Assembly: GCA_021791495.1 (NCBI GenBank)
Contig: JAJYWN010000061.1
Coordinates: 1-64,000 of the forward strand
DNA from: Bacillota bacterium
Lineage (GTDB): Bacteria > Bacillota > Sulfobacillia > JAJYWN01
Direction: 5' to 3'
Length of the DNA stretch: 64,000 nucleotides
This document shows, piece by piece, positions 15,441-19,722 of the stretch (the stretch's first letter is position 1; the number at the start of each line of letters is the position of its first letter). A program made the translations under genes and the position numbers. The notes beneath the pieces are model-generated. The model was not told where the DNA came from, did not search any database, and saw only the letters and a list, made by a program, of their open reading frames with translations.

Positions 15441-15469
15441 TTGACATTTCATCCTGCAGATGGTAAAGT
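15441..15469 (+). promoter_or_regulatory. Promoter of the riboswitch-controlled operon
   Basis: -35 TTGACA (15441-15446, perfect), 17-base spacer, -10 TAAAGT (15464-15469, four of six consensus). Sigma-A type. The predicted transcript would start near 15476 and run into the c-di-AMP riboswitch. Confidence 0.75.
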
Positions 15470-15520
15470 AAGGTCAATTCAATAGACAACTGGCTGGTTT
15501 TCCCAGAGCCAGTCCACTTG

Positions 15521-15650
15521 GATCGCTTAATCCTCGCCAGAGGAACGGGGGACCCAATCACTGGGGCGAATCCGGATGCGGTAGGGCCATTTCCGTCCCG
15601 AGCCCGTCAGCTAACCTCGTAAGCGTGCAGGGAAGGTGGACGCCAGCGAC
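15521..15650 (+). ncRNA. c-di-AMP riboswitch (ydaO/yuaA class)
   Basis: The leader carries the conserved blocks of the ydaO-yuaA class in order. They are ATCGCTTAATCCT at the 5' end, ACGGGGGACCCAAT, GGGGCGAATCC, GGTAGGGC, CCGTCCCGAGCCCG and CAGCTAACCTCGTAAGCG. A closing helix can form between TCGCT at 15523-15527 and AGCGA at 15645-15649. This class binds cyclic di-AMP and normally switches genes off when c-di-AMP is high, acting on genes for wall remodelling, K+ transport and osmolytes. It lies between a strong promoter and a terminator hairpin and precedes the ATP-grasp ligase gene. Identification rests on recalled consensus, not a covariance search. Confidence 0.9.
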
Positions 15651-15681
15651 TTATTTGCAGTCTGCTTTGGAAGTGGGTCCA

Positions 15682-15720
15682 GGCGGGCAGATGAGCTTGC
15701 CCGGCCCCCTCGTTGTTTCT
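15682..15720 (+). terminator. Intrinsic terminator (expression platform)
   Basis: Stem GGCGGGCA (15682-15689) with TGCCCGGCC (15698-15706, one bulged G), loop of 8 bases, then a pyrimidine/T-rich tail CCCCTCGTTGTTTCT. It is placed 32 bases after the aptamer and 150 bases before the first start codon, as expected for transcription termination upon ligand binding. Confidence 0.65.
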
Positions 15721-15872
15721 ACTTTCGCTCTAACCCCCTGCGTGACGCGGTACATCGGGACCGCGGGTTGGCTCGATGTTTCTTCTCTGGATTCGCCGCG
15801 CCGCAGCACCTCTCCGGCTCGGTTTCGCCCGTTCGCCCTGGCGACCCACCCATGGGAAGGAGGGCGAGTATC

Positions 15873-16844
15873 GTGGCAACCGTGGCCTTGGTGTACGACA
15901 GAGGTTCGCGCCATTCCATTCGCAATCAACTACAGGCACAGCGCACCCGGAAGGCGGTCAAGGCCGCTCTCTTAGCCAACGGGTACAACGTGACGGAACT
16001 GGCCGCCGGCACGGCACTGGCTCATGTGGTCCGCGCCCTGCGGCCACAGTTGGTGTTCTCCCTGGCCACAGGCTCGAGTACCAAGAACCAGCAGGCCCAT
16101 GTCATCGCTGCCCTGGAGGCTACTGGAATCCCCGTAGTCTCTTCCTCATTGTCCGGACATGTTTTCGGTCTCCACAAGCCCGCCGCCAAGTTGCTCTTTG
16201 CGGCGGCCGGCGTGCCGACTCTGCCTTTCGTCGTCTACGACGAAGGGGGGCGCACCCTGTTGCGCCTTGGCCAACTGGCCTTTCCGGCCATCGTCAAGCC
16301 GGCCCACGAGGGGTCCAGCCTGGGAATTGACAGTAGTAGTGTGGTGGCCGACCCGGCGGAGCTTCAGCCGGTGGTCGACCGGGTCATCCGGTCCTTCCAC
16401 CAACCGGCGCTGGTCGAAACGTACGCGCCGGGGCGTGAGTTCACTGTGGGCCTGGTGGGTAACTTCGCCAAGGGACGCGAGCCGGAGATCCTCCCCATCG
16501 AAGAAATCGTGTTTCAGAACGGTGACGGCGCCTACACCTACGACGTCAAGAGTCGCGACGCGGTGACGCCCGTCTGTCCGGCCGGAATCGACGAGGAACT
16601 GGCCGCGCAGATCAGGGACATGTGCTTGACGGCATTCCGGGCCTGCGGGTGCCGCGACCTGGCCCGCATCGATGTGCGGCTGTCGGCGGAGGGGCACCCA
16701 TACGTCCTGGAGATCAACACCTTGCCCGGCCTGGAACCGGGCTACAGTGAACTTCCGCGCATGGCGGACGCGGCCGGCTGGGGTTTCAACGGGCTTATCA
16801 AACGGATCGTTCAGGCTTGCCTACTAAGGGGGTGGCGACAATGA
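15873..16844 (+). CDS. ATP-grasp ligase, D-alanine-D-alanine ligase-like
   Basis: 323-aa ATP-grasp enzyme of the Ddl family, which joins a carboxylate to an amine through an acyl phosphate. Visible blocks: ATP-binding PAIVKPAHEGSSLGID, acidic metal site VLEINTLPGLEPGYSELP, and N-terminal VALVYDRGSRHSIRNQL. The C-terminal EINTLPGLEPGYSELPRMA differs from housekeeping Ddl (EVNTxPGMT), suggesting a different amine or carboxylate substrate. The frame is open upstream into the riboswitch, but the start is taken as GTG 15873 with GGAGGG 8 bases ahead. First gene of the c-di-AMP-riboswitch operon; overlaps the dehydrogenase start by 4 bases. Wall D-Ala-D-Ala synthesis is less likely because no mur genes are near. 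Confidence 0.82.
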   Translation: MATVALVYDRGSRHSIRNQLQAQRTRKAVKAALLANGYNVTELAAGTALAHVVRALRPQLVFSLATGSSTKNQQAHVIAALEATGIPVVSSSLSGHVFGLHKPAAKLLFAAAGVPTLPFVVYDEGGRTLLRLGQLAFPAIVKPAHEGSSLGIDSSSVVADPAELQPVVDRVIRSFHQPALVETYAPGREFTVGLVGNFAKGREPEILPIEEIVFQNGDGAYTYDVKSRDAVTPVCPAGIDEELAAQIRDMCLTAFRACGCRDLARIDVRLSAEGHPYVLEINTLPGLEPGYSELPRMADAAGWGFNGLIKRIVQACLLRGWRQ

Positions 16845-18058
16845 CCGAGAGACAAAGTTCTGACTCCGCACAGTCTCCCCGTTTCGTCATCGTGGGAGCG
16901 GGCAACGGTGGGCTGGCCATCGCCGGCCATCTGGCCCTGAAGGGACATCCGGTGGCCGTCTACGGCCGCCGGGAAGAGAAGCTGAAGCCCATCCGGGAAG
17001 CCGGCGGGCTGGAACTGGCCGGTGCGGTGCAGGGGTTCGCGCCCGTGTCCTTACTCACGACCGACATAGAGGAGGCCCTGGCCTTCGCCGACACCGTTCT
17101 GGTGGTGGTCCCCGCCTCGGCCCACCGTGACGTGGCCGAGAAGTGCGCGCCGTACCTTGGTGACGACCACGTGGTGGTGCTGTTGCCGGGCCGAACCGGA
17201 GGCGCGATGGAGTTTAGCCGGGTCTTGCGGGAGAACGGAAACTCCCTGAGCTGGATTGTGGCGGAGACAGGGACTTTCCCGTACGCCAGCCGCCATCTGG
17301 GGGGCAATTTGGTACGGGTATTCGGGTTGAAGAAGACGGTGACCGTGGCCGCGTTGCCGGCCCTTGCCACGCCTCTGGTGCTGTCCAGGCTGCACTTCGC
17401 CTTCCCCGAGATGACGCCGGCCCTGACGGTGCTGCGGACCAGCCTCGATAACCTGGGCGCCATTTTCCACCCGGCGCCCACCGTCCTGAACGCGGCCCGG
17501 ATTCACGAGACGGGAGGGGCTTTCGACCATTACCACCAGGGGATCAGTCCCGAAGTGGCCAGAATCCTGGAGGCGATGGACCGGGAGCGTGTGGCGGTGG
17601 CCGCGGCGCTGGGCGCCAAGGTCTCCACGGCCCTGGAGTGGCTGCATCAGACTTACGGAGTCGGGCAGGGCGCCGGGCAGGGCACCGGGCAGGGCGCCGG
17701 GCACGGCGGTGGGCAGAGCGTGGCGCACGGTGCCGGGCCGGCCGACCTGTACTCGGCGCTGCAAGAGAACAAGGTCTACGCCGGCATCGCCGCCGCCACG
17801 GACCTCAATCACCGCTACATCACCGAGGATGTCCCTTGCAGCCTCGTACCCATCGCCTCTCTGGGGCAAAGTGTGGGAGTACCCACTCCCACGATTCGCT
17901 CTATCATCTACCTGGCCTCACTGATGACCGGGGTCCAGTTTTGGCTGACCGGTCGCACCGTCGACAAATTGGGGCTTTCCGGCCTGTCGGCTCCGGAGAT
18001 CCGGCGGCTGGCGGAGTTCGGGAGCAGCGACGTACCTGAAGAGGTGGTCCTCGCTTAA
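16841..18058 (+). CDS. Opine-type NAD/NADP dehydrogenase (octopine/nopaline DH family)
   Basis: 405-aa two-domain dehydrogenase. Rossmann motif GAGNGG at residues 19-24, followed by LAIAGHLALKGH. The C-terminal octopine-dehydrogenase domain shows AIFHPAPTVLNAARI with the catalytic-type His, then GGAFDHYHQGISPEVARILE and DRERVAVAAALG. Family members reductively couple an amino-acid amine to a 2-oxo acid, giving N-(carboxyalkyl)amino acids. A Gly/Gln/His-rich insert at about residues 272-295 is encoded by five degenerate 12-bp repeats (17663-17722). ATG 16841 overlaps the ligase stop and has AAGGGGGTGG upstream. Probably acts with its neighbours in one pathway; substrate unknown. Confidence 0.82.
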   Translation: MTERQSSDSAQSPRFVIVGAGNGGLAIAGHLALKGHPVAVYGRREEKLKPIREAGGLELAGAVQGFAPVSLLTTDIEEALAFADTVLVVVPASAHRDVAEKCAPYLGDDHVVVLLPGRTGGAMEFSRVLRENGNSLSWIVAETGTFPYASRHLGGNLVRVFGLKKTVTVAALPALATPLVLSRLHFAFPEMTPALTVLRTSLDNLGAIFHPAPTVLNAARIHETGGAFDHYHQGISPEVARILEAMDRERVAVAAALGAKVSTALEWLHQTYGVGQGAGQGTGQGAGHGGGQSVAHGAGPADLYSALQENKVYAGIAAATDLNHRYITEDVPCSLVPIASLGQSVGVPTPTIRSIIYLASLMTGVQFWLTGRTVDKLGLSGLSAPEIRRLAEFGSSDVPEEVVLA

Positions 18059-18081
18059 GGATTCGTTTCGGGAGGTGTTCC

Positions 18082-19722
18082 ATGGCAGACAGAAACGACC
18101 ATAGTCCGAATGGTCCAAGGCACGGCCAATTCATCCTGGGGGCCTGCCTCGGTGAAGATGTGCACGTCGCCGGAGTCCTGAACTTCCTGCGCCTGGCGGA
18201 GGAGCAGGCCGGTTACGTAACGGAATTCCTGGGCCCGGCCACGCCCGTACAGAGAATCGTGGACGTCGTCAAGGAAAAGCGGCCGCACATGGTGGCTATC
18301 GGCTACCGTCTGGGACCCGAGGCCGCCGCGGTCCTTTTGGGGGCGCTGGCGCGCTCCGTCCGCTCTGAACTCGCCGGGGTCATCGCCATCGACGGCTCAG
18401 CTATCCGCTGGGTCTTCGGCGGTACGCCTCCGGTGGCGGAGGAAGCCAGGGCCACCGGTCTTTTTGAAGCCGCCTTTTCGGGCGAGGAAGGGATCGACCA
18501 CATTCTGGCCTTTCTCCGGGGGAAAGTAAGTTCCGGCGTCGCCGTGCGGTGGCCGGACTCCTTGGTCGAGCGCATCGCCGCGAAGAAGCCCTACCCGCTC
18601 ATCCGGCACCACTTCGGCCTGGCGACTGTGGAGCAGACGGTGCGCGGCGCGGCGGAGATCGCCGAGGCGGAGGTGCTGGACATCTTGTCCCTCGGCCCCG
18701 ACCAGAACGCGCAGGAGAGCTTCTTCCGGCCCGAAGAGATGGACCCCAGGCAGGACGGAGCGGGCGGGGTACCCCTCCGGACGCCCGATGACCTGCGCCG
18801 TATCTATGAGGCCAGCCGCCGCGGGAACCACCCCCTCGTCCGGTGCTACAGCGGCACGCGCGACCTGGTCAAGATGGCCGCCATGTACAAGGCTACCATC
18901 AACCTGGCCTGGGGGGCGGTCCCGCTCTTCTGGTATTCGGTGCTGGACGGACGGAGCAACCGGGGGCTCGAACAAGCCATTTCGGAGAACCTGGCCGCCG
19001 TCGCCTGGCACGCGGACCAAGGCATACCGGTGGAGATGAACGAGTCGCACCATTGGAGCCTGCGCGAGGCGCCTGATGAGGTGGCGGTGGCGGCGGCGTA
19101 TCTGGCCGCCTACAACGCTAAGAAGGCTGGCGTGCGGCACTACGTGTCGCAATACATGCTAAACACACCGGCGGGTACCACGGCGTCCATGGACCTGGCC
19201 AAGATGCTGGCCAAGATCGACCTCATCGAGTCCTTACACGACGGTGACTTCACCACCTACCGGCAGGTCCGGGCGGGGCTCATGAGCTTCCCGACCGATC
19301 CAAACGCGGCCCAAGGGCAGTTGGGCTATGCCATCTGGCTGGGCATGTGCCTCAAGCCGCACATCGTCCATGTGGTCGCCGCCTGCGAGGCCCACCACGC
19401 CGCCAGGCCGGGCGATGTGATTGAAAGCTGCCGGCTGGCCCGGGGCGTTATCAACAGCTGCTCGGCCGGGCTGCCCGACCCGGCCGCGGATCCGGTGGTC
19501 GCCGCCCGGCGCCGCGAACTGGTGGATGGAGCAACCCATCTGCTGGATGAGGTGAAGCGCCTGGCGCCGGCCGGATGCCCAGACCCATGGACCGATCCGG
19601 CCACGCTGGCCGCGGCGGTGCGGACGGGTCTGCTCGACGCCCCCCATCTCGCCGGTAACCCCCATGCGGCCGGCCGAGTGCGGACCAGAATAGTGGGTGG
19701 AGCCTGTCGCGCCATAGCTTAG
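18082..19722 (+). CDS. B12-binding-domain enzyme, possible mutase of unknown substrate
   Basis: 546 aa. The N-terminal ~150 residues form a cobalamin-binding Rossmann-like domain. Motif DVHVAG at residues 26-31 fits DxHxxG of base-off/His-on B12 proteins, and VFGGTPPVAEEA fits the glycine pair below the nucleotide tail. The usual Ser-x-Leu is replaced (GYRLGPE). The C-terminal ~370 residues look like an alpha/beta barrel with blocks EMNESHHWSLREAPDE, RHYVSQYMLNTPAGTTAS and FPTDPNAAQGQLGYAIWLG. They remind me of glutamate-mutase-like barrels, but I cannot place the family. It follows the dehydrogenase gene by 23 bases with GGGAGGTG upstream of ATG. Function unknown; a B12-dependent rearrangement or methyl transfer is an inference. 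Confidence 0.7.
   Translation: MADRNDHSPNGPRHGQFILGACLGEDVHVAGVLNFLRLAEEQAGYVTEFLGPATPVQRIVDVVKEKRPHMVAIGYRLGPEAAAVLLGALARSVRSELAGVIAIDGSAIRWVFGGTPPVAEEARATGLFEAAFSGEEGIDHILAFLRGKVSSGVAVRWPDSLVERIAAKKPYPLIRHHFGLATVEQTVRGAAEIAEAEVLDILSLGPDQNAQESFFRPEEMDPRQDGAGGVPLRTPDDLRRIYEASRRGNHPLVRCYSGTRDLVKMAAMYKATINLAWGAVPLFWYSVLDGRSNRGLEQAISENLAAVAWHADQGIPVEMNESHHWSLREAPDEVAVAAAYLAAYNAKKAGVRHYVSQYMLNTPAGTTASMDLAKMLAKIDLIESLHDGDFTTYRQVRAGLMSFPTDPNAAQGQLGYAIWLGMCLKPHIVHVVAACEAHHAARPGDVIESCRLARGVINSCSAGLPDPAADPVVAARRRELVDGATHLLDEVKRLAPAGCPDPWTDPATLAAAVRTGLLDAPHLAGNPHAAGRVRTRIVGGACRAIA

Follow-up and report, generated by a model that had tools for sequence, protein, structure and literature searches.

When cyclic diadenosine monophosphate (c-di-AMP) is high, riboswitches of the ydaO family turn expression off. 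Genes known to be controlled by this aptamer family serve K+ transport and betaine transport or encode wall hydrolases (PMC7266159 and the survey below). The same aptamer precedes the three-gene operon considered here, which lies in a stretch of 64,000 nucleotides (the window) from a Bacillota bacterium of the Sulfobacillia (assembly GCA_021791495.1, contig JAJYWN010000061.1, positions 1 to 64,000, forward strand) and encodes a Ddl-superfamily ATP-grasp ligase (LIG), an opine dehydrogenase (ODH) and a predicted B12-dependent mutase (MUT). It is read here, with moderate confidence, as an operon that would synthesize an acidic-opine osmolyte or K+ counter-ion under c-di-AMP control.

Each component has relatives of described function. 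Opine dehydrogenases from hot springs (mODHs) prefer L-Asp and L-Glu together with pyruvate, and mutagenesis identified Ala111→Arg and Asn198→Gly, in the numbering of the Arthrobacter enzyme ArODH, as the exchanges that switch preference (Telek et al. 2024, PMC10787698); the available part of that report gives no genomic context or physiological role for them. Glutamate mutase (GlmS/GlmE; 1cb7, 6h9e) is similar to MUT in its B12 domain and barrel fold and is recovered as a remote profile match, but the two share only about 15% identity, and MUT differs in holding both parts in one chain, in its ODH partner and in its c-di-AMP control. Amidation in the pathway of the osmolyte N-acetylglutaminylglutamine amide (NAGGN) is carried out by an asparagine-synthase-type enzyme (PMC8070244). 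This pathway, consisting of asparagine synthase and Ngg, resembles what is proposed for the present operon in being small, osmotically regulated and directed at the amidation of an acidic amino-acid conjugate, whereas it contains neither a mutase nor an opine dehydrogenase and is not preceded by a c-di-AMP riboswitch. A search of the literature, not extending to the gene-association tables in Block 2010 and Nelson 2013, found c-di-AMP riboswitches connected with neither opine dehydrogenases nor B12 mutases. The components belong to known superfamilies, while the pathway and the mutase family appear to be undescribed in that literature. A preliminary description of this DNA had already proposed an undescribed pathway, and the conserved ODH-MUT pair, the riboswitch and the non-Ddl ligase argue in its favour.

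The three genes are as tightly spaced as the preliminary description had stated, and all are confirmed as open frames on the forward strand. LIG (15873-16844, 323 residues) starts with GTG, preceded by the Shine-Dalgarno sequence GGAAGGAGG; ODH (16841-18058, 405 residues) overlaps LIG by four bases (ATGA), and MUT (18082-19722, 546 residues) follows after a gap of 23 bases. Upstream on the same strand, at 15514-15640, lies a full-length match to the ydaO/yuaA aptamer (RF00379, model positions 1-134 of 134) with 89.9 bits against a cut-off of 38, the sole RNA found by Rfam at curated thresholds in the whole window. Just ahead of it, a sigma-70-like site (TTGACA-17-TAAAGT, 15441-15469, forward strand) agrees with the promoter consensus at 10 of 12 positions, with 0.1 such sites expected in shuffled sequences; it is a consensus match only. 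No clear terminator was found between the aptamer and LIG (15641-15872). At the level of sequence, the triplet is shown to be a real operon behind a c-di-AMP riboswitch, and the c-di-AMP control assumed in the preliminary description is equally real. The genome contains a gene for diadenylate cyclase, the c-di-AMP synthase, and three RF00379 matches including that of the operon. The other two precede K+ transport genes, encoding a KimA-like permease and TrkA.

The association recurs in other genomes. A search of 126 genomes, nearly all of them MUT-bearing, returned 196 riboswitch matches, and at 68 of 134 MUT loci a riboswitch of the same orientation lies no more than 6 kb upstream (34 of 59 within the class and 34 of 75 outside it). 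By our own estimate, the density of riboswitches would produce about 0.2 such cases by chance; the 68 loci come from related species and do not represent 68 independent events. The distance between riboswitch and MUT is mostly 1.1-1.6 kb, which fits ODH alone, or 2.2-2.5 kb, which fits LIG plus ODH. Seven genomes that combine the riboswitch with a gene for true glutamate mutase E served as a negative control, and in none of them was a riboswitch present at that gene. Individual loci vary in arrangement: L132 (G144:C37:42548-42937) has two tandem c-di-AMP riboswitches ahead of ODH-MUT, and at L060 (G041:C41:39962-40188) the riboswitch lies 90 bases upstream of a MUT gene without ODH in front, the second MUT copy of that genome (L061) having ODH and no riboswitch.

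The genes downstream of 80 of the remaining riboswitches were read, and K+, betaine, wall-hydrolase and other groups were named by eye. ODH stands alone behind its own riboswitch in five cases (L215, L220, L224, L230, L251), and four of these five genomes have a MUT locus without an adjacent ODH. LIG-type genes have their own riboswitch in two cases (L265, L267), other Ddl-like ATP-grasps in five (L191, L198, L202, L213, L269) and AsnB-type (asparagine-synthetase-type) genes in two (L246, L223), with AsnB also found at L160. The family-5 solute-binding protein of a peptide-type ATP-binding cassette (ABC) importer is found behind nine riboswitches (L204, L211, L212, L216, L254, L256, L262, L267, L270), and at L267 one riboswitch is common to LIG and the importer, which follows directly after LIG. 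The remainder lie ahead of genes for K+ transport, betaine transport, a large number of wall hydrolases and other functions. The strongest indication that the pathway genes act together, and do so in osmotic or K+ physiology, is that individual ones recur separately behind this riboswitch. The recurrence of the importer suggests c-di-AMP-controlled uptake of a solute.

Among 101 near relatives, 64 have MUT, a few of these being weak or partial matches; of 398 genomes sampled from the phylum, 87 have it, and the ODH-MUT pair is found in about a fifth of the related genomes covered. Of 89 MUT loci inspected with their surroundings, a few of them counted twice owing to the use of two collections, 81 have ODH as the immediate upstream neighbour of MUT in the same orientation, and these represent many families within the phylum. 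The order LIG-ODH-MUT is found at nine loci, the window included, and ODH-MUT-LIG at six, while LIG is on the opposite strand near ODH-MUT at two. At about 12 other loci, an AsnB-type enzyme is encoded after MUT or before ODH. LIG and an AsnB-type enzyme were never seen together at one MUT locus; this mutual exclusion has a P value of about 0.04, or about 0.06 after removal of genuine Ddl, is uncorrected for relatedness and is only suggestive. Since the pair is conserved and LIG and AsnB alternate between loci, the core of the pathway is ODH plus MUT, with an exchangeable amide-forming step provided by LIG, other ATP-grasps or AsnB. The triplet of the preliminary description therefore recurs in part: the ODH-MUT adjacency is widespread, but LIG accompanies it on the same strand in only about 15 loci, and about 12 others have an AsnB-type enzyme instead. 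At L148, MUT is divided between two adjoining genes of 395 and 244 residues.

ODH contains both the NAD(P) Rossmann domain and the Octopine_DH helical domain (Pfam Octopine_DH, 4.3e-46) and is of the CENDH/ArODH type, its closest structure being the Arthrobacter enzyme 1bg6 (E 1.2e-71). The His202/Asp297 dyad of ArODH aligns with His210 and Asp330, each conserved in 78 of 78 family members. ArODH position 35, which marks dependence on reduced nicotinamide adenine dinucleotide phosphate (NADPH), corresponds to Arg43 and is Arg or Lys in 76 of 78. The position of ArODH Ala111 is occupied by Arg118 (codon 17192-17194; Arg in 77 of the 77 members with a residue there) and that of Asn198 by Gly206 (codon 17456-17458; Gly in 78 of 78). 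Dyad, Arg/Gly pair and the Arg at the NADPH position are shared with the mODHs. The same pair occurs in seven of seven ODHs from loci in which MUT is fused to MutL, and a pair of this type is missing from the opine-dehydrogenase paralogues of this genome. As the invariant Arg118 and Gly206 match the switch residues, it can be predicted with good confidence that ODH couples pyruvate to an acidic amino acid; action on acidic amino acids is probable. One of the characterized enzymes, mODH-582, has a poor Michaelis constant (KM) of 24.8 mM for L-Asp (PMC10787698), an inefficiency that hints at a different acidic amino acid, such as the product of MUT, as the natural substrate. Four further opine-dehydrogenase-like genes without the acidic-substrate signature are located on contig C62 of the same genome (L092-L094).

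MUT combines an N-terminal cobalamin domain with a C-terminal barrel resembling glutamate mutase E. The Pfam B12-binding match (2.5e-5) is below the Pfam cut-off, and a PDB search with MUT as a single protein gave no match. The DxHxxG motif named in the preliminary description is present as D26-V-H28-V-A-G31 (codons 18157-18174), and modelling supports a B12 mutase fold. All 78 family members keep His28 and Gly31, but only six have Asp at the first motif position, the other 72 having Cys. The AlphaFold model, built from a 32-sequence alignment, has a mean predicted local distance difference test (pLDDT) score of 88.5, and its top two Foldseek matches are glutamate mutase E structures (E 3.4e-15 and 9.5e-15), the best being 6h9e_B with template modelling (TM) scores of 0.58/0.65 at 15% identity. 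Ornithine and lysine aminomutases and acyl-CoA mutases occupy the next ranks. D-ornithine 4,5-aminomutase and lysine 5,6-aminomutase, which match MUT in the sequence of the B12 domain and are next-best in fold, use pyridoxal 5'-phosphate (PLP) as well, whereas no PLP-binding part was found in MUT by Pfam, the only search made for it. A related branch of the family is fused to MutL (PF13941), which supports real mutase chemistry. MUT is very probably an adenosylcobalamin (AdoCbl) mutase; it appears to represent a new mutase family, remotely homologous to glutamate mutase and undescribed in the literature searched.

A canonical glutamate mutase is ruled out at the sequence level. The profile Met_asp_mut_E (PF06368) detects the MUT proteins of relatives only weakly, at about 18-35 bits and E values down to 3.7e-9, compared with up to 786 bits for true members, and it matches neither the window's MUT nor anything else in the genome (0 matches). 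Profile-profile comparison with glutamate mutase E aligned 401 columns (E 3.5e-4). In this remote alignment, Tyr177 of glutamate mutase aligns with Tyr285 of MUT, Arg175 and Arg254 of MUT lie on corresponding strands but two residues ahead of the columns of Arg66 and Arg149, and neither Arg100 nor Glu171 has a counterpart. Glu171 of glutamate mutase binds the free amino group. Because the substrate residues are not simply conserved, with Tyr177 kept and Arg100 and Glu171 unmatched, we infer that the substrate is glutamate-like but different, perhaps N-substituted.

LIG carries the ATP-grasp catalytic domain of D-alanine-D-alanine ligases (Pfam Dala_Dala_lig_C, 7.6e-39, 133.8 bits against 24). 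In contrast to these enzymes, it lacks the N-terminal Ddl motif GGxSxEHEVS and carries Ser227 where E. coli DdlB has the specificity residue Tyr216, the position at which 1iov and 1iow differ. Its scores of 166 and 139 bits are below the Ddl family cut-offs of 243 and 246. The genome contains a canonical Ddl (L003), a second Ddl beside a VanY-like gene (L004) and a paralogue of LIG. Taken together, the sub-cut-off scores, the Tyr216 replacement, the loss of the motif and the two other Ddl genes rule out LIG as the housekeeping Ddl, and the concern that it might be the only such enzyme of the cell does not hold. An apparent LIG at L145 was recognized by its Tyr216 as a genuine Ddl. The asparagine-synthetase-like proteins of L223 and L246 apparently lack the N-terminal glutaminase cysteine, beginning with MSRI or MYRI and not with MCGI.

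Seven loci (L065, L075-L078, L137, L147) encode a divergent ODH, about 26-30% identical to that of the window, together with a MUT-MutL fusion of about 1,220-1,270 residues. Most of them also contain a peptide-type importer and a C26 amide hydrolase and/or a D-aminoacylase-type amidohydrolase, with GntR regulators among the locus genes, and no riboswitch was found next to any of the seven. The solute-binding proteins of three MUT-MutL loci are 52-64% identical to those encoded behind c-di-AMP riboswitches, and in one genome (L065) MUT-ODH and MUT-MutL modules lie side by side. The MUT-MutL set looks catabolic. The simplest reading is that one gene set makes a compound, while the MUT-MutL set imports and degrades the same or a related compound.

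In the proposed pathway, MUT would rearrange a glutamate-like carbon skeleton, either free glutamate or the glutamate half of the opine, by AdoCbl radical chemistry. Using NADPH, ODH would couple the acidic amino acid and pyruvate into a branched acidic amino acid with an N-[(R)-1-carboxyethyl] group, and this product would be the same whichever of the two steps came first. LIG, or elsewhere an AsnB-type enzyme or another ATP-grasp, would then cap a carboxylate as an amide. The riboswitch would lower expression at high c-di-AMP, in K+-replete cells, and allow it under osmotic demand, while the peptide-type ABC importer, encoded behind riboswitches and in the degradative MUT-MutL operon of other species, would take up the product. 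The most concrete candidate for this product, though on balance a doubtful one, is N-(1-carboxyethyl)-3-methylaspartate (C8H13NO6, monoisotopic mass 219.074), an isomer of N-(1-carboxyethyl)glutamate; glutamate as the substrate of MUT is a guess, because four pocket residues of glutamate mutase are unmatched. It is conceivable, though somewhat less than probable, that branched acidic opines, such as this compound and its amides, form a new class of compatible solutes, made with a new AdoCbl mutase family, controlled by c-di-AMP jointly with K+ transport, exchanged between cells by way of a dedicated importer and degraded by other bacteria through MUT-MutL.

Several observations weigh against osmolyte synthesis. 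No riboswitch accompanies about half of the MUT loci, in many genomes the ODH-MUT pair has no third enzyme next to it, none of Arg66, Arg100, Arg149 and Glu171 has an identical residue at the aligned position of MUT, and the genome yielded no adenosyltransferase of the PduO type, the only type searched for. Wall hydrolases are also controlled by c-di-AMP riboswitches, so that an osmolyte is not forced, and at two loci (L130, L148) an ATP-grasp, MUT and ODH are encoded amid surface-polysaccharide genes. These last two points are shared with the main rival, a rather unlikely one, in which the operon would place an unusual amino-acid or opine residue on the cell wall or a surface polysaccharide, with c-di-AMP control as for wall hydrolases, a large class behind the other riboswitches. 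N-(1-carboxyethyl) amino acids are known decorations of O-antigens, and LIG belongs to the Ddl superfamily. However, polysaccharide clusters account for only two of about 86 loci, most ODH-MUT operons have no adjoining glycosyltransferase or wall gene, LIG is devoid of the Ddl specificity residues, and the apparent importer and degradative operon are as expected of a free solute. Of what the preliminary description envisaged, a novel amino-acid conjugate and an osmolyte are the best supported, by inference, and a wall-linked metabolite is the weaker. A low probability is likewise given to a catabolic or redox role, in which MUT and ODH would break down or ferment opines taken up from outside or acidic amino acids, and opine formation would serve as an NADPH sink. 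Glutamate mutase is classically a fermentation enzyme, and the fused MUT-MutL loci with their peptide importer, C26-type and D-aminoacylase-type hydrolases and GntR regulators point in this direction. Yet these loci form a separate branch with a distant ODH and no adjoining riboswitch, whereas the canonical operon pairs with ATP-consuming amide-forming enzymes and K+/osmotic control, which fits synthesis.

The remaining alternatives are less probable still. MUT could be a cobalamin-bound sensor or corrinoid carrier, with ODH alone performing the chemistry, as the sub-threshold Pfam B12 domain and the prevalence of Cys at the motif's Asp position might suggest; this is quite improbable in view of the strongly conserved C-terminal barrel of approximately 400 residues, which is structurally closest to AdoCbl mutases, and of the branch fused to MutL, a family that accompanies these enzymes. 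An opine-type metallophore pathway, comparable to that of staphylopine, would account for an opine dehydrogenase beside ligase genes and is very improbable, as the operon is controlled by c-di-AMP jointly with K+ transporters, genes for metal uptake or resembling nicotianamine synthase were not noticed as recurrent neighbours, and the ODH signature is that of Asp/Glu-pyruvate enzymes. The chance that these are ordinary genes, with LIG a housekeeping D-Ala-D-Ala ligase in a fortuitous neighbourhood, is close to nil: LIG is Ddl-like by profile, but it differs from Ddl in the features given above, and the neighbourhood is conserved.

If osmolyte synthesis is correct, an undescribed metabolite and an uncharacterized family of B12-dependent mutases would be added to osmoadaptation, with vitamin B12 as a cofactor of this response in bacteria. 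A subclass of opine dehydrogenases characterized only as biocatalysts would gain a physiological role, and the c-di-AMP regulon would widen from solute import to solute synthesis.

Other genes recur around MUT or behind the riboswitches. P-type ATPase, aminotransferase, YicC/RemA/Gmk and RqcH-like genes are recurring neighbours of MUT that look like a shared chromosomal neighbourhood and were set aside as pathway members. At L207 and L209 (G018, G038), a gene for a GNAT-like acetyltransferase of 213 residues, named by eye, lies directly behind strong c-di-AMP riboswitches. At L199 (G001:C67), the gene directly behind the riboswitch encodes a protein that resembles, also by eye, the c-di-AMP receptor PstA/DarA, a possible feedback loop.

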